DNA from: Ferrimicrobium sp. | GTDB lineage: Bacteria; Actinomycetota; Acidimicrobiia; Acidimicrobiales; Acidimicrobiaceae | Reading direction: 5' to 3' | DNA: 64,000 nucleotides | NCBI RefSeq assembly: GCF_027364955.1 | Contig: NZ_DAHXOI010000001.1 | Coordinates: 124,001 to 188,000, forward strand | In this document: positions 5,128 to 32,622 of the stretch, piece by piece | Numbering within the stretch: the stretch's first letter is position 1 | Layout: each line of letters opens with the position of its first letter | Notes under the pieces: model-generated | Seen by the model: only the letters and a program-made list of their open reading frames with translations | What the model was told of the DNA's origin: nothing | The model's database searches: none | Position numbers and translations under genes: made by a program

Positions 5128-6537
5128 GTGGTCAACGGAAAGACGCTCGCCGAGAAGGTGTGGGAGTCTCACCTAGTGGATCGAGGAGGACCGGGAGAGG
5201 CAGACCTGATCTATATCGATTTACATCTTGTCCATGAGGTGACCTCTCCGCAGGCCTTCGATGGGTTGCGGCTGGCGAATCGCCGAGTTCGTCGTCCAGA
5301 CCTCACCGTCGCAACGGCCGATCATAACGTTCCTACCGAGCATATCGACCGCCCAATTGCCGACCCGATCAGCGCAAAACAGCTGGAAGTATTGGCGCGC
5401 AACTGTGATGAGTATGGGATCAGGTACTATCCCATGGGCTCACAGGGCCAGGGAATCGTACATGTGATTGGTCCGGAGCAGGGACTCACCCAGCCGGGTT
5501 TGACGATCGTCTGCGGTGACTCGCATACCGCAACCCATGGAGCGTTTGGCGCTCTTGCTTTTGGAATTGGTACCTCCGAGGTAGAGCATGTTTTGGCCAC
5601 GCAGACGCTGGCCCAGGTCCGACCAAAGACGATGGCGGTGACAGTTGATGGCGCACTCCCAGAGGGGACCTTCGCCAAAGACCTCATTCTGGCCATCATC
5701 GGGCAGATCGGGACGGGTGGAGGTATTGGCCATGTGATTGAGTATCGCGGTGAGGCCATTACCAATCTGTCGATGGAGGCTCGTATGACGGTCTGCAATA
5801 TGAGCATCGAAGCTGGCGCTCGTGCGGGCATGATTGCGCCCGATGCCACGACCTTTGCGTATCTTACGGGTCGCGAATTTGCTCCTCAAGGTGAACTCTT
5901 TGGACAGGCGACGGCGGCTTGGAATGAGCTCGCAAGTGATCCAGATGCGGCATTTGATACAGAGGTCCGGATCCAAGCTTCCACGCTGAGGCCGCAGGTC
6001 AGTTGGGGGACGAATCCCTCGCAGGTTGTCGATATCGATGGCACGATCCCCGATCCGGATCAGTTTGCACTCGCGCCGCAACGTGAGGCTGCTCATCGTG
6101 CTTTACGCTATATGGATCTCCGCCCAGGGACAGCGATCCGCGCTATCGGAGTCGATGTCGTGTTCATCGGATCATGCACCAATTCGCGCATTGAAGACCT
6201 TCGGATCGCCGCTGCGGTCCTTGAGGGTCGACATGTCAACCCTTCTGTACGCACCCTGGTGGTGCCTGGTTCACGTCGTGTGATGCAGCAAGCCGAAGCC
6301 GAGGGTCTGGATCGGATTTTTCGTGCTGCGGGAGCGGAGTGGAGGGAGCCTGGTTGCTCCATGTGTTTGGGCATGAACCCGGATCAGCTTAAGCCTGGTC
6401 AACGGGCGGCCTCAACTTCGAATCGTAACTTTGAGGGGCGACAGGGTCGGGGAGGGCGTACCCATCTGGTCTCGCCAGCGATCGCAGCCGCAACGGCGCT
6501 GCGCGGTACCTTTAGTTCGCCAAGCGATCTGGACTAG
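5128..6537 (+). CDS. leuC: 3-Isopropylmalate dehydratase large subunit
   Basis: Aconitase-family enzyme that, with LeuD, isomerises 2- to 3-isopropylmalate; the same complex can serve citramalate in the CimA route. 469 residues. The three cysteines of the 4Fe-4S cluster are seen in GSCTNSR and [24 protein letters not shown] is also typical. Start GTG at 5128 follows GGGGGA at a spacing of seven bases. leuD starts 32 bp after it. The N-terminus begins with the usual [13 protein letters not shown]. Confidence 0.97.
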
Positions 6538-6569
6538 TCACAACAACGATCGAGAAAGAGGGAGAGGGA

Positions 6570-7169
6570 ATGGAGCCTGTAACTGAACTACGCGGACACG
6601 CGGTACCGTTAGCGATATCAGATGTCGACACCGATCAGATCATTCCGAGTGAGTGGCTCAAGCGTGTCGAACGTACAGGTTTTGGTGAAGGATTGTTCTC
6701 TGAATGGCGCCAAGACCCTGAGTTCGTTCTGAACAAGCAACAGTTTGCGGGATCGACGATCTTGATCGCACGAGAGAACTTCGGGGTTGGTTCCTCACGC
6801 GAGCACGCGGTATGGGCGTTAATGGACTACGGTTTCCGGGTCGTGATATCGCCACGGTTTGGCGATATTTTTCGTAACAACTCGTTGAAAGTCGGCCTGC
6901 TGCCGGTGGAGTTGAGCCAGCAAGAGGTGCAAGCATTGCTTGAGTTGGTTGTCAAAGAACCTGCTACGGAGATCCTGGTGGACTTAGAGAGCCAGCGCGT
7001 GAGCGTACCAGGTGCCTCGCTTGAGTTCGGATTCGCGATCGACCCAACTGCGAAGGCGCGGTTACTCGCTGGTCTCGATGAGATCGGGATCAGCTTGACC
7101 AAAGAGGCTAAAATTCGTGACTACGAAAATGACCGTCCGCCGTGGATGCCAAGTCTCTCGATCAGCTGA
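6570..7169 (+). CDS. leuD: 3-Isopropylmalate dehydratase small subunit
   Basis: Swivel-domain partner of LeuC. 199 residues, normal length. The motifs DVDTDQIIPSEWLKR near the N-terminus and ILIARENFGVGSSREHAVWAL in the middle bind the substrate and are diagnostic. It is preceded by AGAGGGAGAGGG. It is cotranscribed with leuC and convergent with serC, 88 bp away. Confidence 0.97.
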   Translation: MEPVTELRGHAVPLAISDVDTDQIIPSEWLKRVERTGFGEGLFSEWRQDPEFVLNKQQFAGSTILIARENFGVGSSREHAVWALMDYGFRVVISPRFGDIFRNNSLKVGLLPVELSQQEVQALLELVVKEPATEILVDLESQRVSVPGASLEFGFAIDPTAKARLLAGLDEIGISLTKEAKIRDYENDRPPWMPSLSIS

Positions 7170-7257
7170 GCGATGCATCGGCATCCTGGGGGGGTGAGCA
7201 CTAGCCTTCCCTAGAGATAGACCGAGTTAGGGGTCCAGGGGTTTAAAGTCGGCGGCG

Positions 7258-8379
7258 CTAGCGTCGGCCCACAATGAAGTCGATGCACTGGGTGAGGGCT
7301 TCGACGTCATCAGGGTTGATCGAGGGAAAGAGCGCGATGCGTAGTTGGTTGCGGCCAAGCTTACGATACGGCTCGGTGTCGACGATACCATTAGCACGGA
7401 GTGTGGCCGCGACCGCTGTCGCATCCACACTATCGTCAAAGTCGATCGTTCCAATCACCGGTGACCGGAGTGCGGGGTCACTGACGAAAGGCTGTGCATA
7501 CGCCGCACTGTCGGCCCACTGATACAGGATGGCGGCTGAGTCTGCCGAACGTTTGGCAGCATACGAGAGCCCGCCGTGCGATAGCAACCACTCGAGCTGA
7601 GCGTTGATGAGGTAGAGGGTTGCGATTGCTGGCGTGTTGTAGGTTTGGTTCTCTCGCGAGTTGTCGATAGCAACTGACAGGTCGAGCATGGTGGGGATGT
7701 AGCGGCCAAGGGCGACAGTCTCGACGGCGCGCGATATCGCTTGGGGTGAGAGCAGTGCGATCCAGAGTCCGCCCTCAGAGGCGAAGGCTTTCTGAGGCGA
7801 GAAGTAGTAGGCATCAAAGACGGAAGGGTCTACCGGGACCGCTCCCGCTGCTGAGGTGGCATCGACGAGGACTAAGGCATCCGGCGACTGTGGCCGCTGG
7901 AGAGGGGCGAGAACGCCTGTTGAGGTTTCGTTGTGCGTGAGGGCGTAGGTGTCGATTCCCTCGACCTCCTCAAGCGTGGGGCACGATCCGTACTCGGCCT
8001 TCACCTCCTTGACCGAGTTGATGAAGGGCGCCTGCCGCGCTGCGGCGGCGAATTTTGATGAGAACTCCCCGAAGACGAGATGTTCACTCGAGGACCTGAT
8101 CAGGGAATGGACGGCCATGTCCCAGAAGAGGGTGGCTCCACCGTTCCCGAGGACAACCTCGTAACCGTCGGGGAGCTTGAACAGTTCGGACATCCTTTCA
8201 CGGATGACGCGGACCAGATCTTTGACCGCTGGTCGGCGATGAGAGGTGCCAAGAAGCGTATCCTGGGTCTCTGCCAGACCATCGAGGAAGAAGGTGGGGA
8301 TCTTCGATGGGCCGGAACCAAATCGGCCGTCGGAGGGCAGTATCTCCGAGGGTAGGGTGATGGATGAATTCGCACTCAT
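7258..8379 (-). CDS. serC: Phosphoserine aminotransferase
   Basis: PLP class V enzyme that converts 3-phosphohydroxypyruvate and glutamate to phosphoserine. 373 residues from the ATG at 8379, which has GGAG six bases upstream. The longer frame to 8433 would run into the divergent gene and has no support. FGSGPSKIP at the N-terminus and YYFSPQKAFASEGG with the PLP lysine are typical of the actinobacterial SerC type. Its partner serA lies 1.4 kb away; only 29 bp separate serC from the divergent aminotransferase, so their promoters must overlap. Confidence 0.93.
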   Translation of the reverse strand: MSANSSITLPSEILPSDGRFGSGPSKIPTFFLDGLAETQDTLLGTSHRRPAVKDLVRVIRERMSELFKLPDGYEVVLGNGGATLFWDMAVHSLIRSSSEHLVFGEFSSKFAAAARQAPFINSVKEVKAEYGSCPTLEEVEGIDTYALTHNETSTGVLAPLQRPQSPDALVLVDATSAAGAVPVDPSVFDAYYFSPQKAFASEGGLWIALLSPQAISRAVETVALGRYIPTMLDLSVAIDNSRENQTYNTPAIATLYLINAQLEWLLSHGGLSYAAKRSADSAAILYQWADSAAYAQPFVSDPALRSPVIGTIDFDDSVDATAVAATLRANGIVDTEPYRKLGRNQLRIALFPSINPDDVEALTQCIDFIVGRR

Positions 8380-8408: not shown

Positions 8409-9614
8409 ATGTCTCCTCGCCGTATCGCAACACGAATCGAACAGCTCAACGAATCTGCGACGCTCGCGATCGATGCGACGGCAAAGTCGATGCTAGCCCG
8501 TGGAGTCGACCTCGTGAGCTTTGCGGCGGGAGAACCTGACTTTGCAACACCATTTTTTATTGTTGAGGCCGCTGTTGAGGCTGCGCGTGATCCACGCAAT
8601 CACCACTACACACCCGCTGCTGGGCTTGCCGAACTTCGTGAGGTCATTGCCAAGCGCACCGAGCAATTGAGCGGACTCTTTGTGGATCCGAACCAAGTGG
8701 TCGTCACCAATGGAGGCAAGCATGCGGTCTATTCGGCGATGATGACGTTACTGGACGACGGTGACGAGGTGCTTATCCCGTCTCCCTATTGGGTGACCTA
8801 TCCTGAGGTAGTACGGCTTGCTGGTGGAGTCCCCGTCGCGGTCCCGACCGATCTCTCCACTGCTTTTAAGGTCACGCCTGCGTTGCTTGAGCGCTACTGC
8901 ACACCGCGCACCAAGATGTTGATTCACGTCTCCCCGTCGAATCCTACCGGTGCGGTCTACTCCGACGAAGAGAGCGCTGCGCTGGCTGACTTTGCCGATC
9001 GTCGTGGTCTCTATATCGTTAGCGATGAGATCTATCAGCAGCTGACCTATGGGATGGAGAGTGCTCCGGCCATTGGAAGCTTTGCGAGCCAAGAGCTCAC
9101 GCAACGTTTGATCCTAGTCAACGGAGTCGCGAAGACTTTTGCCATGACCGGATGGCGCGTCGGGTGGGTGATTGCACCGGTTGATATCGCCAAAGGGGTC
9201 GTCAAGCTCCAGTCACAGCTATGTTCCAACGTCTCCAACGTCTCGCAGCGGGCGGCGGTGGCGGCGCTCGGTGCTGACGCGGACGCGACAGGCTACATGC
9301 GCGAGGCGTTTGCCCGTCGACGGGAGAGCATCGTTAGCCTTCTCGCCGCTATCGACGGAATCGATGTGATGTGGCCACAGGGTGCCTTCTATGTCTTCCC
9401 TTCGGTGCAGGGTGTGCTTGAGCGGCAGTTCGAGGGATCGCCGATTGGATCAAGCTATCGCTTTGCGGAGTTGTTGCTTGAACACGCCAAGGTTGCGGTC
9501 ATTCCGGGCGAGGCGTTCGACGCTCCTGGTTATCTGCGCCTTTCCTACGCATTGTCTGATGAAGGTATTGTCGACGGGATCGGTCGGATTGCCGACTTCG
9601 TTACTAGACTTTGA
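8409..9614 (+). CDS. Class I aminotransferase, aspartate aminotransferase type
   Basis: PLP aminotransferase of subgroup I-gamma, likely aspartate (or aspartate/prephenate) aminotransferase. 401 residues. Visible motifs: FAAGEPDFATP near residue 40, SPSNPTGAVYS, IVSDEIYQQLTY and NGVAKTFAMTGWRVGW with the PLP lysine. Start ATG at 8409 follows GAAAGGTG. It sits between serC and serA, so it may help feed glutamate-linked transamination, but its exact keto-acid partner cannot be read from the sequence. Confidence 0.9.
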   Translation: MSPRRIATRIEQLNESATLAIDATAKSMLARGVDLVSFAAGEPDFATPFFIVEAAVEAARDPRNHHYTPAAGLAELREVIAKRTEQLSGLFVDPNQVVVTNGGKHAVYSAMMTLLDDGDEVLIPSPYWVTYPEVVRLAGGVPVAVPTDLSTAFKVTPALLERYCTPRTKMLIHVSPSNPTGAVYSDEESAALADFADRRGLYIVSDEIYQQLTYGMESAPAIGSFASQELTQRLILVNGVAKTFAMTGWRVGWVIAPVDIAKGVVKLQSQLCSNVSNVSQRAAVAALGADADATGYMREAFARRRESIVSLLAAIDGIDVMWPQGAFYVFPSVQGVLERQFEGSPIGSSYRFAELLLEHAKVAVIPGEAFDAPGYLRLSYALSDEGIVDGIGRIADFVTRL

Positions 9615-9728
9615 GGGAACGTGCACTTTTTGCTGCTGACCAGCTTGTGGGCTAGGTAGCTGAAGGGTAGCGGTTGGCCGCTGGTAGCAGTGGCGCAGGC
9701 AACGGTGCCTAGGTGAAGGTATCAAAAC

Positions 9729-9755
9729 ACGATATCGTAATATGATGTCGTAATA
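9729..9755. promoter_or_regulatory. Palindrome and direct repeat before serA
   Basis: ACGATATCGT (9729-9738) is a perfect palindrome, and GATATCGTAATA at 9731-9742 recurs as GATGTCGTAATA at 9744-9755. The pair ends 15 bp before the serA GTG. The phasing of about 13 bp and the AT-rich character suggest a repressor site or an overlapping promoter; the regulator is unknown. Confidence 0.4.
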
Positions 9756-9770
9756 CAGTGGGGAGTAGAT

Positions 9771-11354
9771 GTGGCTACCATCTTAGTGAGCGAGGTTATT
9801 GCAGATCGCGGGCTTGATATCCTTCGGGGGGCGGGGCACGAGGTTCGCGTCGCGCTCGATCTCTCGCCTGAGCAACTCCTTGAGGCGGTACGAGACGTGC
9901 ACGCGATCATCATTCGGTCGGCCACCAAGGTGACGGCTGAAGTCGTCGCGAACGCACCGCATCTGATTGTGGTGGGGCGGGCTGGCATCGGTCTGGACAA
10001 CGTTGATGTGGAGGCTGCTACTCAGGCTGGCGTGATGGTGGTGAATGCACCTCAATCCAACATTATCTCTGCAGCTGAACACACCATGGCATTATTGCTG
10101 GCGCTTTCAAGGCAGATCCCACAAGCACATGCCAGCTTGGCCTCTGGCACTTGGGCCCGGTCCAAGTTCGAAGGTGTCGAACTCTATGGAAAAACGCTTG
10201 GCATCGTTGGTCTTGGACGGATTGGCGCACTTGTGGCCCAGCGAGCGCTGGCTTTTGGCATGACACTTATCGCCTATGACCCTTATATATCCCAGGAACG
10301 AGCCAAAAAAATGGGCGTTGAGCTGACCTCGCTTGTGGATCTTGTGCAACGGGCTGATTTTGTCACGATCCATCTACCCAAATCCAAGGAGACGAAAGGG
10401 CTTATTGGCAAGGAATTGCTCGCGCATGCGAAGCCAGGCATACGCTTTGTGAACGCCGCTAGGGGTGGAATCATCGATGAAGATGCGCTCTATGCTGCTC
10501 TCGTAGAGGGAACGGTTGCCGGGGCCGCTTTGGACGTTTTTGCAACAGAGCCGCCCACGGGATCGCCTTTGCTCGGTCTCGACACGGTGGTGGCCACTCC
10601 CCACCTCGGTGCAAGTACCGAGGAGGCCCAGAATAAAGCAGGCATCACCATCGCCGAGCAGGTGCAGCTAGCGCTGGCCAATGAGTTTGTTCCGTTTGCG
10701 GTGAATGTGAATGCAGCCGAGGCATCGGCACAGGTGCGTCCATATTTGGGTTTGGTGGAGTTCCTCGGCCAGTTCATCTCATCGTTGACTGGTGGCCTAC
10801 CCGGATCGCTTGAGATTGAGTATCAAGGCGAGCTCGCCCACGAGGACACCCGACTCTTGACGCTGTCGATCCTCAAAGGGATCTTTTCGGTTGGTCTGAA
10901 CGAGCCCGTCTCCTACGTGAACGCGCCTCAGCTCGCCTCAGAACGAGGGCTGGAGATTCGTGAGACGACGGTTGCCAATAGCCTGAACTTCCGCAACCTG
11001 GTCATCTTGCGCACACCGGAACATCTGGTTGGCGGAACACTCGCTGGGGCCAGTGGCGCTGAGCCAAGGATCGTGCTTGTCGATGGTCACTGGGTCGAGG
11101 TACCACCCTCAGTCTCGATGTTGGCAGTCCGTAATTTTGACCAGCCAGGCATGATTGGTGTCGTAGGCAAAGTGCTTGGCGATGGTGGGTACTCTATCGA
11201 CTCGATGGCGGTCTCCCCGAGGGTAGATGATGGAACTGCGTTGATGTTGCTCAGTGTTTCACGTCCAGTGGATCCGGAGATTATTCAGCTGCTAGAGGCC
11301 AATGCGGGGATCATTTATGCGAAGTCGGTCGGATCTGCGTTAGAGGTCGATTAG
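9771..11354 (+). CDS. serA: D-3-phosphoglycerate dehydrogenase with ACT domain
   Basis: Commits 3-phosphoglycerate to serine synthesis. 527 residues, the long form: N-terminal substrate- and NAD-binding domains (GRAGIGLDNVDVEAA near residue 70, GIVGLGRIGALVA near 145, and the catalytic His in TPHLGASTEEA), then the intervening allosteric domain, and a C-terminal ACT domain (VRNFDQPGMIGVVGKVLG) that usually senses serine. Start GTG at 9771; the overlapping ATG two bases earlier leads to an early stop. A strong double hairpin follows the gene. Confidence 0.96.
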   Translation: MATILVSEVIADRGLDILRGAGHEVRVALDLSPEQLLEAVRDVHAIIIRSATKVTAEVVANAPHLIVVGRAGIGLDNVDVEAATQAGVMVVNAPQSNIISAAEHTMALLLALSRQIPQAHASLASGTWARSKFEGVELYGKTLGIVGLGRIGALVAQRALAFGMTLIAYDPYISQERAKKMGVELTSLVDLVQRADFVTIHLPKSKETKGLIGKELLAHAKPGIRFVNAARGGIIDEDALYAALVEGTVAGAALDVFATEPPTGSPLLGLDTVVATPHLGASTEEAQNKAGITIAEQVQLALANEFVPFAVNVNAAEASAQVRPYLGLVEFLGQFISSLTGGLPGSLEIEYQGELAHEDTRLLTLSILKGIFSVGLNEPVSYVNAPQLASERGLEIRETTVANSLNFRNLVILRTPEHLVGGTLAGASGAEPRIVLVDGHWVEVPPSVSMLAVRNFDQPGMIGVVGKVLGDGGYSIDSMAVSPRVDDGTALMLLSVSRPVDPEIIQLLEANAGIIYAKSVGSALEVD

Positions 11355-26472: not shown

Positions 26473-26550
26473 GCTACGACCCGTGATTTGATCCGGGTGC
26501 TCTGCTGGAGCACCCGCGCTTTGCTAGGCTGACTGCCAGGAGGGCGATTG

Positions 26551-27738
26551 ATGATGACGGATGAGCAAGAGGTACGCCAAGCGACGCTTCGGCTTCTCGA
26601 GGAGGTCGATTTCGAGAGGGTCGGGGGGATCGCATTCCGTGGTGAACAATACGATCGCGGTCTCGCCTTTGTACATCATCCGGTTGGTCTCGGTGGCCTT
26701 GCAGCGAGTCCCGCCCTGCAAGGGGTGATCGATGAGCTGCTGGCGAATGCGAATATCCCTCCCGCCTTTGCGAGTAACCCAATCGGCGTGGGAATGGGAG
26801 CTCCGACGGTGATGACCTATGGATCTGTCGATCTTAGGCAACGGTTGCTACGCCCGCTCTTTACTGGTGAAGAGATTTGGTGTCAGCTCTTCTCTGAGCC
26901 TGGAGCTGGGTCAGACGTCGCTTCCCTGGCGACGAGGGCGATTCGTGATGGGGATGAATGGATCCTGAACGGACAGAAAGTATGGACTACCCTCGCTCAT
27001 GTTGCTCGTTGGGGAATGCTTGTCGCACGGAGCGATCCCGGAGCACCCAAGCACCGAGGGCTGACCTATTTTGTTTTGGATATGCGCGCAGTGGGTGTTG
27101 AGGTACGGCCATTACGACAGATCACCGGTGAGGCAGAGTTCAACGAGGTGTACCTCACGGATGTGCATATCCCCGACACGATGCGCCTTGGTGATATAGG
27201 CAAGGGGTGGTCGGTCGCGATCACCACCTTGATGAGCGAGCGAGCCTCGATCGGTGGTGTGGTAATGCCGAGAAGTAGTGGGGCTATCGCAGAGGCGATC
27301 GGAGCTTTTCGCACCATGGGGAGTCCGAGCAGCGGGCTCGATCAGTTGATGCAACTATGGTGCAGCGCAGAGGCCCTCCGGTTGACCTCCTTGCGGGCCG
27401 CCGCGCAGCGACAACAGGGTAATCCGGGTCCTGAAGGGTCGGTGGTGAAGCTCGCAAATGCTGAGCTCAACCAGAAAATCTACGAATATTGCATAGATAT
27501 CCAGCAAGACGCCTCGCTGTTGTATCCGGACTACACCATGCGACGCCCTGAGTTTGCGGGTGTGCATGGTGACACCTCCTCGCGGACGATGACACAGGCA
27601 TTTTTGCGATCCCGCGCCAATACGATCGAAGGTGGCACCTCGGAGGTGATGCGAAATATCTTGGGTGAACGCGTGCTTGGGCTGCCTGGTGAACCACGTT
27701 CCGACAAGGAGTTGCCATGGTCGCAGATTCCAGGATAA
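26551..27738 (+). CDS. Acyl-CoA dehydrogenase
   Basis: 395 residues. SEPGAGSDVASLATRAI, the FAD site WILNGQKVWTTLAHVA and the C-terminal RANTIEGGTSEVMRNILGER are typical of the actinobacterial FadE family that acts on longer or branched (including steroid side-chain) acyl-CoA. ATG at 26551 lies seven bases after AGGAGG; TTG at 26548 is possible. Read downstream of the c-di-GMP gene with an 80-bp gap, and apparently alone. Confidence 0.92.
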   Translation: MMTDEQEVRQATLRLLEEVDFERVGGIAFRGEQYDRGLAFVHHPVGLGGLAASPALQGVIDELLANANIPPAFASNPIGVGMGAPTVMTYGSVDLRQRLLRPLFTGEEIWCQLFSEPGAGSDVASLATRAIRDGDEWILNGQKVWTTLAHVARWGMLVARSDPGAPKHRGLTYFVLDMRAVGVEVRPLRQITGEAEFNEVYLTDVHIPDTMRLGDIGKGWSVAITTLMSERASIGGVVMPRSSGAIAEAIGAFRTMGSPSSGLDQLMQLWCSAEALRLTSLRAAAQRQQGNPGPEGSVVKLANAELNQKIYEYCIDIQQDASLLYPDYTMRRPEFAGVHGDTSSRTMTQAFLRSRANTIEGGTSEVMRNILGERVLGLPGEPRSDKELPWSQIPG

Positions 27739-27932
27739 TCACCATGTCGTGAGTATGCCGAAGTCGATCTCGCACCTCCCTCTTTTGGGGTGTGTTGGCC
27801 GACGGTGACACCTCGCAGAATAGCGGTAGAGATGCGACTCGTATCCTTGAATCTGTGAAATGTCTGAACGCCCAATCCTTGTGTGACCAAAGTCCCTAAC
27901 ATCGTTTGCCGTGACTCCATAGGATAGTCGTT

Positions 27933-29914
27933 GGAGTTGTTCCACCGTGGATAGCTCGGTTGTTGGGTGTGTCATTTACGCGCAAGCGTTAGAAAGGATA
28001 CCGCCATGAACGGTCATCCAGTCATCGGGGCGATTGTTAACCTTAATCATCCTGATCATTACATTCACTGGGGTTTTATCCTGATCTCGATGGCGAACTT
28101 TATCGTTATCGTGATCTTGGTCGTGTTGTTCGCTCTTGCTATCAGTCTCCCCTTCCTCAAGGGCAAGCCGGTCAAGCGCAAGAAGTACCAACCAGCCGCC
28201 GCTGCCAGCGGTGACGATGAGTCCGAGGGCTGGACGGCTCATGGTCGACGTCTCGGTTTAAAGTATCTGCCACCTGATAAGTTGTTGCCAGATGGTCAAC
28301 CATCGTATGTGGCATCGTGGGTCTACGTGTTTGGCGTGCTCACCATTGGCGCGTTAATCATGGCTATTCTCAGCGGTATGGTTCTCGCTATTGAGGGCCC
28401 AACGTGGTGGCACTTGAGTGATATTGGTCATTTCGTTAATTCGCTTCATCTGTGGTCGGTAGAGCTGTTTATGGGCTTTATGACCGTGCATCTGTGGGCG
28501 AAGTTCTGGATGGCGGCCTGGCGTGGCAAGCGCTGGCTGACCTGGATGACCGGCATGCTCGCCTTCTTAGTCTCTATCGTCGAGGCCTTCACCGGGTATC
28601 TCTCTCAGACCAACTTTGATTCCCAGTGGATCGCCTTTGAGGCAAAGGATGCATTCAACGCAGGCGGCATCGGCGCATTGTTCAACGCCATGAACTTTGG
28701 CCAAGCACTGATGCTCCATATCGTTTTGGTCCCGATCATCTTGGTGTTGATCGTGGGGATTCATGTGTTGATGGTTCGCATCCGCGGTGTTGTTCCGCCG
28801 ATTGGTGCTGAGCCGGCTCACCTTGGTGAGAACGGTAGTGACGCAACGATCGCCCCCAGGACAGAAACGGCAGAGGGCCAAGAAGTGAGCACAGTGGAGG
28901 TAGGGCAATGAGTCGGTGGAGTGAAAGCGAACGTAAGGATGGCCGACCATGGCACGGGCCGCTACGCCATTATGATATTCTGAAGGAGGCGACCATAGCA
29001 TTCGGGATCGTGCTCGTCCTGGTCTTTCTCCTCGCCATCACCTTCTCGTCGCCAGATGCCCCCCCGGTTACGGTGCAGTCGTGGGCAAAGGCCCAGCCGG
29101 TTGGCTTTGTTGACATCGCTCTGACTGAGCTCAACGGGACGAGTAACTCTGCGACCTATGGACCACCCTACAATACGTCGAACAATCCGGCGACGGACTC
29201 TGTGCAATCCCTTGGTCCGATCTCGGTCCAGAAGTTCTTTGGTGTGAAGTATCCGCTCAATACGGCGAAGGACTTTGTGCTGAACCCGCTGTCGACTCTG
29301 CCGGACTTCCCTTCATTAACGGCGGCTATCGCAACCTATGAACAGGCACCCAAGGCGACCGAGGACCGCTGGGTCAGCAACTACCAAGCACAGCTCAATA
29401 AGCTTCCGCTCGGCAGCTCAGCCGTTATCTCGCAGATGCCCTCGGCGGGGCCAGTTCCCACACTGATGAGTCATCTCCTCGCCATGGCGCAGTCAGGCGC
29501 TCTTGATGCGCAACTCCTGACCCAGTCGAGCTTTTATACCACGAACTATACGAATCCTTTGATGTTCATCGGCGATTCTGTGGTGGCACAACCGAATAGT
29601 TACTGGAACAAGCTTGTCACGGTTGATCATTTACAAGGTAACCAATGGGGCGTGATGAACGAGACCGGATCCTGGCCCGGCCAGCCGTGGATGTGGCTCT
29701 ACACGATGTGGTATCAGATCTCACCGATGTCAACCTCGGGCAATGGTGATGTAGAGGTCCTCGCCATCATGACAGTATTGAGCCTCCTCTTGCTCTTTGT
29801 ACCGGTCATTCCTGGACTCCGCAAGATCCCAGAGAAGATCCCGTTGTATCGTCTTATCTGGCGTAACTACTACCGTGACCCCGATTTCACCAAGGTAGAC
29901 GTACCAGCGCAACG
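27933..29914 (+). repeat. Tandem duplication, copy 1 of the cytochrome b unit
   Basis: About 2 kb that reappears at 30084-32053. The offset is 2151 bp up to 29145 and 2139 bp after 29205. Similarity begins 73 bp before the 5' gene, at GGAGTTGTTCC, and ends in the last codons of the 3' gene. Differences are very few outside one patch at 29146-29204. Confidence 0.97.
28006..28911 (+). CDS. Cytochrome b6-type subunit, copy 1
   Basis: 301 residues from the ATG at 28006 (AAAGGA upstream). N-terminal membrane span at about 22-50, a basic and acidic linker, then four spans of a diheme cytochrome b N-terminal domain. His148/His162 and His238/His253 are the haem ligands; the 15-residue step in the second pair is the b6-type spacing. 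It should carry electrons between quinol and the rest of a bc-type complex in the cytoplasmic membrane. The 3' gene starts within its stop (ATGA). No Rieske or cytochrome c gene is in the window. The product is identical to copy 2. Confidence 0.88.
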   Translation: MNGHPVIGAIVNLNHPDHYIHWGFILISMANFIVIVILVVLFALAISLPFLKGKPVKRKKYQPAAAASGDDESEGWTAHGRRLGLKYLPPDKLLPDGQPSYVASWVYVFGVLTIGALIMAILSGMVLAIEGPTWWHLSDIGHFVNSLHLWSVELFMGFMTVHLWAKFWMAAWRGKRWLTWMTGMLAFLVSIVEAFTGYLSQTNFDSQWIAFEAKDAFNAGGIGALFNAMNFGQALMLHIVLVPIILVLIVGIHVLMVRIRGVVPPIGAEPAHLGENGSDATIAPRTETAEGQEVSTVEVGQ

Positions 29915-29921
29915 GGTCTGA
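28908..29921 (+). CDS. Membrane partner of cytochrome b6-type subunit, copy 1
   Basis: 337 residues. One span at about 28-46, a ~230-residue extracytoplasmic domain rich in Ser, Thr, Pro and Asn, and one C-terminal span (about 283-303) followed by RKIPEKIPLYRLIWRNYYRD, which recalls the cytoplasmic end of a cytochrome b or subunit IV. It begins inside the stop of the cytochrome gene. Likely a subunit-IV-like partner with a large outside domain; no haem-binding CxxCH is present. Residues ~79-98 differ strongly from copy 2. Confidence 0.7.
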   Translation: MSRWSESERKDGRPWHGPLRHYDILKEATIAFGIVLVLVFLLAITFSSPDAPPVTVQSWAKAQPVGFVDIALTELNGTSNSATYGPPYNTSNNPATDSVQSLGPISVQKFFGVKYPLNTAKDFVLNPLSTLPDFPSLTAAIATYEQAPKATEDRWVSNYQAQLNKLPLGSSAVISQMPSAGPVPTLMSHLLAMAQSGALDAQLLTQSSFYTTNYTNPLMFIGDSVVAQPNSYWNKLVTVDHLQGNQWGVMNETGSWPGQPWMWLYTMWYQISPMSTSGNGDVEVLAIMTVLSLLLLFVPVIPGLRKIPEKIPLYRLIWRNYYRDPDFTKVDVPAQRV

Positions 29922-29932
29922 GAGATCGACCG

Positions 29933-29963
29933 GGGCAGCACGGGGTTCATCCCCATGCTGCCC
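29933..29963 (+). terminator. Hairpin after cytochrome copy 1
   Basis: GGGCAGCA-c-GGGG paired with CCCC-a-TGCTGCCC around a TTCAT loop. It starts 11 bases after the stop codon of the 3' gene. There is no long T-run, so termination may be partial. Confidence 0.6.
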
Positions 29964-30083
29964 TCGTTGCTGTTACGGCGTACGTAGCAGCCAGTGGGCC
30001 GAGATAGGGCTGGTTCTAACGGCTCGACTTTGTGTGACTTAAGACTCTAGCGCTTCTTCCCGCCTGTGTGTAGGCTCACGCTG

Positions 30084-32053
30084 GGAGTTGTTCCACCGTG
30101 GATAGCTCGGTTGTTGGGTGTGTCATTTACGCGCAAGCGTTAGAAAGGATACCGCCATGAACGGTCATCCAGTCATCGGGGCGATTGTTAACCTTAATCA
30201 TCCTGATCATTACATTCACTGGGGTTTTATCCTGATCTCGATGGCGAACTTTATCGTTATCGTGATCTTGGTCGTGTTGTTCGCTCTTGCTATCAGTCTC
30301 CCCTTCCTCAAGGGCAAGCCGGTCAAGCGCAAGAAGTACCAACCAGCCGCCGCTGCCAGCGGTGACGATGAGTCCGAGGGCTGGACGGCTCATGGTCGAC
30401 GTCTCGGTTTAAAGTATCTGCCACCTGATAAGTTGTTGCCAGATGGTCAACCATCGTATGTGGCATCGTGGGTCTACGTGTTTGGCGTGCTCACCATTGG
30501 CGCGTTAATCATGGCTATTCTCAGCGGTATGGTTCTCGCTATTGAGGGCCCAACGTGGTGGCACTTGAGTGATATTGGTCATTTCGTTAATTCGCTTCAT
30601 CTGTGGTCGGTAGAGCTGTTTATGGGCTTTATGACCGTGCATCTGTGGGCGAAGTTCTGGATGGCGGCCTGGCGTGGCAAGCGCTGGCTGACCTGGATGA
30701 CCGGCATGCTCGCCTTCTTAGTCTCTATCGTCGAGGCCTTCACCGGGTATCTCTCTCAGACCAACTTTGATTCCCAGTGGATCGCCTTTGAGGCAAAGGA
30801 TGCATTCAACGCAGGCGGCATCGGCGCATTGTTCAACGCCATGAACTTTGGCCAAGCACTGATGCTCCATATCGTTTTGGTCCCGATCATCTTGGTGTTG
30901 ATCGTGGGGATTCATGTGTTGATGGTTCGCATCCGCGGTGTTGTTCCGCCGATTGGTGCTGAGCCGGCTCACCTTGGTGAGAACGGTAGTGACGCAACGA
31001 TCGCCCCCAGGACAGAAACGGCAGAGGGCCAAGAAGTGAGCACAGTGGAGGTAGGGCAATGAGTCGGTGGAGTGAAAGCGAACGTAAGTATGGCCGACCA
31101 TGGCACGGGCCGCTACGCCATTATGATATTCTGAAGGAGGCGACCATAGCATTCGGGATCGTGCTCGTCCTGGTCTTTCTCCTCGCCATCACCTTCTCGT
31201 CGCCAGATGCCCCCCCGGTTACGGTGCAGTCGTGGGCAAAGGCCCAGCCGGTTGGCTTTGTTGACATCGCTCTGACTGAGCTCAACGGGACGAGTACGAC
31301 CGCGACCTACGGACCTCCGTACAATACTGCGACGGGTTCGTTACAATCCCTTGGTCCGATCTCGGTCCAGAAGTTCTTTGGTGTGAAGTATCCGCTCAAT
31401 ACGGCGAAGGACTTTGTGCTGAACCCGCTGTCGACTCTGCCGGACTTCCCTTCATTAACGGCGGCTATCGCAACCTATGAACAGGCACCCAAGGCGACCG
31501 AGGACCGCTGGGTCAGCAACTACCAAGCACAGCTCAATAAGCTTCCGCTCGGCAGCTCAGCCGTTATCTCGCAGATGCCCTCGGCGGGGCCAGTTCCCAC
31601 ACTGATGAGTCATCTCCTCGCTATGGCGCAGTCAGGCGCTCTTGATGCGCAACTCCTGACCCAGTCGAGCTTTTATACCACGAACTATACGAATCCTTTG
31701 ATGTTCATCGGCGATTCTGTGGTGGCACAACCGAATAGTTACTGGAACAAGCTTGTCACGGTTGATCATTTACAAGGTAACCAATGGGGCGTGATGAACG
31801 AGACCGGATCCTGGCCCGGCCAGCCGTGGATGTGGCTCTACACGATGTGGTATCAGATCTCACCGATGTCAACCTCGGGCAATGGTGATGTAGAGGTCCT
31901 CGCCATCATGACAGTATTGAGCCTCCTCTTGCTCTTTGTACCGGTCATTCCTGGACTCCGCAAGATCCCAGAGAAGATCCCGTTGTATCGTCTTATCTGG
32001 CGTAACTACTACCGTGACCCCGATTTCACCAAGGTAGAGGTACCAGCGCAACG
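30084..32053 (+). repeat. Tandem duplication, copy 2 of the cytochrome b unit
   Basis: See copy 1. The 73 bp before the 5' gene are also kept, so promoter and leader elements came along. The 162 bp that separate the end of copy 1 from the start of copy 2 are unrelated to the sequence before copy 1. Confidence 0.97.
30157..31062 (+). CDS. Cytochrome b6-type subunit, copy 2
   Basis: 301 residues, with the same amino acids as copy 1 throughout, including the haem ligands His148, His162, His238 and His253. The DNA also appears identical by eye. The ATG at 30157 has the same AAAGGA leader. The perfect match means that the duplication is recent or kept uniform by gene conversion. It probably raises gene dose or pairs the same cytochrome with an altered partner (31059-32063). 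Confidence 0.88.
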   Translation: MNGHPVIGAIVNLNHPDHYIHWGFILISMANFIVIVILVVLFALAISLPFLKGKPVKRKKYQPAAAASGDDESEGWTAHGRRLGLKYLPPDKLLPDGQPSYVASWVYVFGVLTIGALIMAILSGMVLAIEGPTWWHLSDIGHFVNSLHLWSVELFMGFMTVHLWAKFWMAAWRGKRWLTWMTGMLAFLVSIVEAFTGYLSQTNFDSQWIAFEAKDAFNAGGIGALFNAMNFGQALMLHIVLVPIILVLIVGIHVLMVRIRGVVPPIGAEPAHLGENGSDATIAPRTETAEGQEVSTVEVGQ

Positions 32054-32063
32054 ACCCTCTTGA
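31059..32063 (+). CDS. Membrane partner of cytochrome b6-type subunit, copy 2
   Basis: 334 residues. Same as copy 1 except Asp11 to Tyr, a four-residue shorter and different segment around residue 79-94 (TSTTATYGPPYNTATGSLQ), and a different end (EVPAQRPS). The changes in the segment include silent ones, so it is not a set of new point mutations. The segment lies in the extracytoplasmic domain. It starts inside the stop of the cytochrome gene, as in copy 1. Confidence 0.7.
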   Translation: MSRWSESERKYGRPWHGPLRHYDILKEATIAFGIVLVLVFLLAITFSSPDAPPVTVQSWAKAQPVGFVDIALTELNGTSTTATYGPPYNTATGSLQSLGPISVQKFFGVKYPLNTAKDFVLNPLSTLPDFPSLTAAIATYEQAPKATEDRWVSNYQAQLNKLPLGSSAVISQMPSAGPVPTLMSHLLAMAQSGALDAQLLTQSSFYTTNYTNPLMFIGDSVVAQPNSYWNKLVTVDHLQGNQWGVMNETGSWPGQPWMWLYTMWYQISPMSTSGNGDVEVLAIMTVLSLLLLFVPVIPGLRKIPEKIPLYRLIWRNYYRDPDFTKVEVPAQRPS

Positions 32064-32086
32064 TTTGTTGGCTGTAGATGGTAGAG

Positions 32087-32115
32087 CCGGGGACGTATGG
32101 CGGGGCGGTCCCCGG
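32087..32115 (+). terminator. Hairpin after cytochrome copy 2
   Basis: CCGGGGAC (32087-32094) pairs with GTCCCCGG (32108-32115) around a 13-base loop, 23 bases after the stop. No T-run follows. Confidence 0.45.
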
Positions 32116-32191
32116 GTGTACCACGGATGGTGGTAAGAGACACGACATGTTGCTCGATCGGAAGCCATTATAGTGGATCGAGTCTCCTAGA

Positions 32192-32267
32192 GGCCCCATC
32201 GTCTAGAGGCCTAGGACACCACCCTCTCAAGGTGGAGACACGGGTTCGAATCCCGTTGGGGCTGCCA
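32192..32267 (+). tRNA. tRNA-Glu (CUC), CCA encoded
   Basis: Acceptor GGCCCCA / TGGGGCT (first pair G-U), anticodon stem CCACC / GGTGG with loop CTCTCAA (anticodon CTC), T-arm ACGGG-TTCGAAT-CCCGT, then discriminator G and an encoded CCA. It stands alone between the cytochrome unit and an MFS gene. Confidence 0.95.
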
Positions 32268-32622
32268 AGTATGACCTGCGAATATGCAGGTCATTGCTCT
32301 GGGAATGGTCTCTTCGACTAGGTGGAACGGGTGTTGTGCCTGTGACGGCGACGTGGAGCTTTTCGTGGCATGCGCAATGATCCCGCACTAGCACCTTTGG
32401 CTGTGGTGACTCCTCCAATCACTCTTGGGAACTATCGGCGGCTACACGAATCTCCCTATTCGACCGTTGCGTTGACCAAGATATCGGCACAAGCGCCGCG
32501 TTTCGGACGGGGGTGGGATCTCGGTAGGGTTCCAAACCGGACATCGATGATGATGGACATGCTAGTTTTCGATGATGCTTGAGACAGTTTTGGGTCTCAG
32601 TCATTGCGATGAGCGCAAGGCC
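32268..32622. other. 355-bp stretch with nothing clear
   Basis: Follows tRNA-Glu. Frames of 60-97 codons exist on both strands but lack Shine-Dalgarno sites and similarity to known proteins. No hairpin with a T-run stands out. Confidence 0.4.

Follow-up and report, generated by a model that had tools for sequence, protein, structure and literature searches.

That energy genes of lithotrophs can evolve in concert is already established from the Nitrosomonadales (PMC6053082). According to that report, amoCAB, haoAB, and cycAB are near-identical multi-copy energy operons whose paralogs are closer than their orthologs, synteny speaks against recent duplication, and gene conversion was inferred across 8 species with a depth of 449 million years. 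The mtrA pair of methanogens is described as another case, in which tandem duplicates within an energy-metabolism operon have undergone long-lasting gene conversion (PMC4632066, PMC6053082). Here, we analyzed a window of 64,000 nucleotides from Ferrimicrobium sp. (contig NZ_DAHXOI010000001.1, positions 124,001 to 188,000), which lies within a 3.08-Mb draft genome of 84 contigs (G000) and carries a tandem pair of a two-gene operon coding for a cytochrome b and a following protein, p2. A duplication shared with a related genome, with homogenized genes and separately conserved promoters, very probably explains this pair. The locus resembles the Nitrosomonadales operons in the near-identity of the copies, the closeness of the paralogs, the synteny, and the inferred gene conversion, but not in the number of species or the stated depth, as the tandem pair is seen in 2 (perhaps 3) of 7 genus genomes. 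It differs from the mtrA pair in that the whole unit with its promoter, rather than a single gene within an operon, has been duplicated. The amo, hao, and cyc copies are dispersed in the genome, whereas the Ferrimicrobium copies are in tandem.

An alignment of copy A (window positions 27933-29914, 1982 bp) with copy B (30084-32053, 1970 bp) shows 16 mismatches and one gap of 12 bp. The copies do not differ over their initial 1005 bp, which take in the 73-bp leader before the ATG at 28006 or 30157, and a 59-bp patch (29146-29204 in copy A) holds 13 of the 16 mismatches as well as the 12-bp indel. The identity flanking this patch is 1139/1140 and 684/685 (99.9%), and the three remaining differences are a silent one (A29483), an Asp of copy A that is Tyr in copy B (A28938), and an Asp/Glu exchange (A29900). 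The cytochrome proteins of the two copies are the same, while the p2 proteins (337 and 334 residues) are 98% identical. The boundaries of the repeat are sharp, and its length and identity exclude chance. In a whole-genome search the operon was found at two places in G000, a count that may be higher than two in this draft assembly. The tandem duplication is therefore real, and the first-pass annotation of this DNA was right in describing a near-perfect repeat of about 2 kb with a 73-bp leader and identical cytochromes. The genus set used for comparison comprised 7 genomes, G000 (own) to G006, and the features of the locus are listed below (window positions).

27879-27932, + strand: predicted promoter A, with the conserved element TTGTGTGACNNAAGNCNCTA at 27879-27898 and the -10-like TAGGAT at 27920-27925.
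27933-28005, + strand: leader of copy A, 73 bp, the same in copy B, with AAAGGA resembling a ribosome-binding site before the ATG (sequence alignment).
28006-28911, + strand: gene 1 of copy A, cytochrome b with a b6-like N-terminal domain and an extra N-terminal helix, 301 residues (PF13631, 1q90_B, four His ligands).
28908-29921, + strand: gene 2 of copy A (p2), 337 residues, with hydrophobic stretches; fused to the cytochrome in other genera.
29146-29204, + strand: divergent patch of copy A, long loop form with 4 extra residues (A/B alignment).
29915-30083, + strand: unique 169-bp spacer, its 3' part homologous to the G001 spacer (82% over 55 bp, E 4.2e-7).
29932-29964, + strand: hairpin 3' of copy A, terminator-like without a T run (folding).
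30030-30083, + strand: predicted promoter B, with the same element and the -10-like TAGGCT; diverged from A, common to copy 2 of G001.
30084-30156, + strand: leader of copy B, 73 bp (A/B alignment).
30157-31062, + strand: gene 1 of copy B, cytochrome b, protein identical to that of A (open reading frame (ORF) translation).
31059-32063, + strand: gene 2 of copy B (p2), 334 residues, short loop form.
31297-31343, + strand: divergent patch of copy B, short loop form as in copy 2 of G001, G003, G005, and G006.
26548-27738: acyl-CoA dehydrogenase-like gene, upstream neighbor (named by eye).
32192-32267: tRNA-Glu, downstream neighbor.

The pair is also present in G001. One contig of this genome opens with the 44 C-terminal residues of a first p2 and continues through a related spacer into a complete copy, and another contig ends in the dehydrogenase gene, an A-type promoter, and the head of the first copy, so that copy 1 of G001 was comparable over 215 bp (head plus tail). 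Over these 215 bp, the coding differences numbered 0 between A and B, 1 within G001, and 22 or 23 between the genomes. Paralogs within a genome are thus closer than orthologs between genomes, over a length that is partly biased by the contig breaks. The similarity of A and B extends to synonymous sites, since the four-fold sites outside the patch were the same at 313/314 between A and B and at 162/282 between A and copy 2 of G001. In contrast to the genes, which group by genome, the 54-bp promoters group by position. Promoter A matched that of G001 copy 1 at 45/54 positions and promoter B that of G001 copy 2 at 41/54; across positions, the values were 29 for A and B, 24 for the two G001 promoters, and 25 and 26 for the remaining pairs. 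The promoters of the four single-copy species and of G004 were nearer to the A type. Because the promoters match by position, the duplicated promoter predates the separation of G000 from G001 and has been kept as a separate type. The likeness of promoter B and of the 3' part of the spacer indicates that the duplication is common to G000 and G001 and did not arise independently, and the distinct old promoters argue against a re-duplication of the whole unit. The promoter and gene grouping, the four-fold sites, and the 215-bp comparison thus give good support to the constant gene conversion that the first-pass annotation had proposed as an alternative to selection for dose.

The element TTGTGTGACNNAAGNCNCTA begins 54 bp upstream of the repeat in both A and B. 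Allowing up to 2 mismatches, it occurs in G000 at two places, both of them operon promoters (the reversed control pattern gave 1 match), and the idea that it marks a wider regulon was rejected on this ground. Combined with the TAGG part, it had two matches each in G000 and G001 and a single match in each of the five remaining genus genomes, with 0 control matches, and in 7/7 genus genomes it was confined to sites before assembled operon copies. A search of 12 upstream regions (about 450 bases, 11 loci of other genera, gene starts approximate) did not recover it, the fewest mismatches being 6/16. A sigma-70 scan gave 3 sites (shuffle mean 2.7) and none at promoter A or B, a silence that would fit an activator-dependent promoter. 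In G000, the identity of A and B begins 8 bp past TAGGAT or TAGGCT, near the predicted transcription start. In G001, the two copies become exactly identical 13 bp further on (C108 position 326; expected 313), so conversion does not have a fixed edge. The spacer (29915-30083) occurs once in G000, and none of the five genus genomes other than G001 had a match to it. Its 29915-29990 part folds at -42.9 kcal/mol (z -5.3), which none of 200 shuffles equaled. The terminator scan (5 sites against a shuffle mean of 3.1) missed the hairpin at 29932-29964 and gave a weak site at 30007-30025 instead.

These data are consistent with the following course. The two-gene operon and its promoter would have been duplicated in tandem before the ancestors of G000 and G001 separated. 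Concerted evolution inside each genome would then have homogenized the leaders and genes, with gene conversion between the direct repeats as the simplest mechanism, and meanwhile the two upstream promoters would have diverged and each been conserved. Homogenization would halt near the predicted transcription start and pass over the 59-bp patch. As a likely outcome, a single membrane complex would be expressed from two promoters, each controlled separately.

The patch was compared across relatives in an alignment of 31 rows. The cytochrome family was found at E < 1e-80 in 36 of 60 genomes of relatives, own included, and the alignment was drawn from these 36 without G013, G015, G020, G021, G032, G055, and G057 and without the second copies of G023, G025, and G026. 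The copy A form of the patch (NSATYGPPYNTSNNPATDSV) is four residues longer than the copy B form (TTATYGPPYNTATGSL), and the two are identical at 34/47 positions, about as between species. The long form is present in 5/31 rows (copy A, G002, and the split-type proteins of G016, G023, and G026) and the short form in 26/31, among them copy B and copy 2 of G001. The loop form needs at least 3 changes on the gene tree, which does not resolve the genus; in the 31-row protein tree, built with the patch columns included, 7 of 28 inner branches were open. The patch either retains an old difference or came from an unsampled lineage, and its heterology may itself block conversion. A recent import of the long-loop patch was also considered and rejected for lack of a close donor, the nearest being G023 (48/60 bases) and then G002 (46). 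Another residual difference lies at window position 28938 in the N-terminus of p2, where copy A reads SERKDGRPW (Asp) and copy B SERKYGRPW. Six aligned relatives have Tyr here as well, a more distant protein of G025 has Glu at or near this position, and the Asp of copy A has been left unremoved by conversion.

Several results weigh against the explanation by old duplication and homogenization. Only 215 bp of copy 1 of G001 is assembled, and the identity of the G001 copies is partly built in, as assemblers break contigs at identical sequence. The stretch 3' of copy B (32054-32145) folds more weakly (z -1.6) than that following copy A, so the terminators of the two copies are unequal. Because G002 and other genera have the long loop form too, the patch may have been imported by recombination. 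The evidence from G004, which is 94% identical upstream, is divided. One of its contigs ends at window position 28073, 141 bp inside the repeat, but the other ends at 32154, about 100 bp beyond the repeat and not inside it, and thus a one-k-mer overlap does not explain both breaks. The G004 assembly contains no complete cytochrome gene or p2 and no assembled copy. In G002, G003, G005, and G006, one contig spans the dehydrogenase, a single copy, and the tRNA. The tally for the 7 genus genomes is therefore a pair in 2, a break that may hide a pair in 1, and a single copy in 4. The first-pass annotation held that tandem copies are easily lost. The single copies in 4 of the 6 other genus genomes fit this claim, but they fit a locus that was never duplicated equally well. 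The tree of the neighboring dehydrogenase gene resolves only G000 with G004 and does not separate the two cases.

It is extremely unlikely that the pair is an assembly artifact, in which one locus, present as two strain haplotypes or a collapsed repeat, was strung together. The data are draft, and the patch could be a strain difference. If the genome is that of Ferrimicrobium acidiphilum T23, Newbler and MIRA were used to assemble it from 454 and Illumina data, and the mean 454 read of about 0.7 kb (calculated from PMC4417700) is shorter than the 1005-bp perfect repeat. However, the spacer bears its own second promoter-like element, and G001, a separate metagenome-assembled genome (MAG), has a related spacer and promoter between two copies. 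The presence of the same pair and spacer in a separate genome answers in part the worry about an artifact that the first-pass annotation had itself raised. A recent tandem duplication in the G000 lineage, independent of G001, would explain the near-identity by youth and would agree with the 99.9% identity outside the patch and with the four single-copy congeners. This is nevertheless improbable, as promoter B is nearer to promoter B of G001 (41/54) than to its own promoter A (29/54), and the divergence of the patch (34/47) is at about the species level. The duplicated locus might also have spread horizontally among Ferrimicrobium lineages instead of by descent, and in G001 an element with recombinase-like ORFs (by eye) does adjoin it. 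But the four-fold sites of G000 and G001 are only 57% identical, which excludes a recent transfer, and synteny is kept on both flanks, so we regard horizontal spread as very unlikely.

The possibility that A and B are two functional isoforms, with the patch held different by selection and each copy having its own role, such as a partner or a direction, is compatible with the old shared duplication and seems doubtful, if less remote than the explanations above. Both the long (5/31) and the short (26/31) loop forms are found across species, and copy A has Asp where seven other aligned rows have Tyr. On the other hand, single-copy species carry either form (long in G002; short in G003, G005, and G006), and a 12-bp heterology may block conversion without selection. 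The suggestion in the first-pass annotation that each copy serves one direction of electron flow finds no support, because the cytochromes are identical and the p2 proteins, at 98% identity, differ mainly in one loop. Since the two promoters are separately conserved, a difference in expression between the copies would be a better idea than a difference in direction.

The first gene, whose start was taken as ATG 28006 (the ORF list begins at GTG 27967), matched PF13631 (E 6.7e-9) and cytochrome b6 (1q90_B, E 1.7e-7). Like cytochrome b6 and the cytochrome b of bc1 complexes (1q90_B, 6kls_B; PF13631), the product has the N-terminal domain with two pairs of heme ligands, and the four heme-b His ligands (H-x13-H and H-x14-H) are kept in 31/31 rows. 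The motifs NETG and GQxWxWxY are also present in 31/31 rows, while PEWY/PDWY, CxxCH, and the Rieske box occur in 0/31. For p2, no Pfam or NCBIfam match was obtained at E up to 1. It has strongly hydrophobic stretches at 28-46 and 284-302, with about 237 residues in between, and contains no Cys. The family profile match to cytochrome b in the PDB extends beyond the b6 part into the start of p2, suggesting that p2 begins like subunit IV, in a segment that we take to be helix E. The p2 profile had no significant match to QcrB, and the end of p2 had no significant match. In b6f complexes, the cytochrome and the following module are coded by separate genes, as in the Ferrimicrobium operon. In other genera, either a small helix protein is separate and cytochrome and p2 are fused, or all parts form one chain of about 610-640 residues, and these fused or differently split arrangements are good evidence that cytochrome b and p2 form one complex. 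The AlphaFold2 models of a fused relative and of p2 (predicted local distance difference test scores 53.4 and 62.6) were both too poor to read. With Foldseek, the fused model matched QcrB/cytochrome b chains (best E 4e-5, TM-score by query 0.27), adding little beyond the sequence match, and the p2 model had 0 matches at E up to 0.001.

The first-pass annotation spoke of a bc-type complex, which several differences leave unsupported. There is no adjacent Rieske gene, the PEWY/PDWY and CxxCH motifs and the Rieske box are missing as described above, the partner is large-looped and without cysteine, and a qcrCAB-ctaCDE-like cluster is present elsewhere in G000 (C1, about 20-27 kb; L051; names partly by eye). 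This cluster likewise has a cytochrome b, but it is a separate locus with Rieske and cytochrome oxidase genes alongside and with PDWY present. In the QcrB alignment, 4 of 13 rows (L127-L130) are without PDWY, probably because of wrong frames, and were retained. The operon cytochrome and the cluster cytochrome b are related in the N-terminal domain (profile comparison probability 94, E 9.4e-8), with 28% identity over 115 residues. The product is a stand-alone cytochrome b with a cysteine-free, large-loop protein. Its likeliest role, which we put forward tentatively, may be to carry electrons across the membrane via the two b hemes, linking the quinone pool to an outer-face partner, as the conserved ligands suggest.

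No redox partner was evident in the neighborhoods of the operon, where ORFs were read by eye without a family search. There are three Rieske-domain places in G000, none of them near the operon, and a Rieske protein encoded elsewhere could still serve. At 8 loci of other genomes, the ORFs contained no Rieske box. The selected window ORFs lacked CxxCH, and across 13 loci of relatives only two ORFs had the motif, once each (104 residues in L053 and 470 residues in L108); neither was judged to be a c-type cytochrome. One of the Rieske-domain places of G000 lies about 2 kb beyond a group of electron transfer flavoprotein-like genes followed by a gene for a 721-residue protein (L084 1189-5112, contig C14; by eye).

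Respiration in F. acidiphilum is described as using Fe(II) aerobically or Fe(III) anaerobically (PMC8350767, PMC8790237). In whole-cell spectra of cells on iron, a-type cytochromes dominate, and the authors state that b cytochromes may escape detection (PMC5143472), so these spectra neither support nor exclude a b-type complex. The Acidimicrobiales MAGs tabulated in a mine-drainage study were not scored as Fe(II) oxidizers by Cyc2 (PMC8357290). Among the papers listed in literature searches, none was seen to treat the operon, judging by titles and the beginnings of abstracts, and the T23 genome paper (PMC4417700) is silent on it. The process seen here is of a known kind, and the cytochrome family is uncharacterized. 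More speculatively, the operon might code for an undescribed cytochrome b complex, lacking Rieske protein and c heme and having a large-loop partner, that Ferrimicrobium needs in two regimes, such as the oxidation of Fe(II) on the one hand and respiration with Fe(III) or on organic compounds on the other. In this unlikely scheme, conversion would keep one design under two old conserved promoters and stop at the transcription start, and the spared loop would be a functional isoform. The pair is a clean natural case in which the coding sequence and the promoters of the same duplicates appear to follow opposite evolutionary rules, and the retention of two copies in an iron-cycling acidophile marks this stand-alone cytochrome b family as important. 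The more useful reading is that one protein design with two promoters would provide two control regions for a respiratory-type protein. Should the two promoters respond to different electron donors or acceptors, the pair would reveal the conditions under which the complex operates.

Of 396 genomes of the phylum, 11 (counting G000 itself) had matches of p2 length, and three of these 11 lie outside the class. In another genus, a split-type and a fused-type paralog (5962-7611 and 8636-10557) lie close together (L048, G016 contig C19), forming an older, diverged double set. G151, from outside the class, has two diverged cytochrome/p2 pairs on different contigs (L108 3383-4952 and L109 1378-3237), one adjoining a P-type ATPase-like gene and the other with a ferritin-like gene a few genes away (by eye).

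Beside the operon in G001, about 7 kb of extra DNA (C108, L041 2425-9566) lies between tRNA-Glu (2425-2498) and an 80-bp stretch (9487-9566) that is 91% like window positions 32215-32294, the 3' part of tRNA-Glu and beyond. The extra DNA has tyrosine-recombinase-like and resolvase-like ORFs (by eye) and is probably an integrative element at the tRNA.

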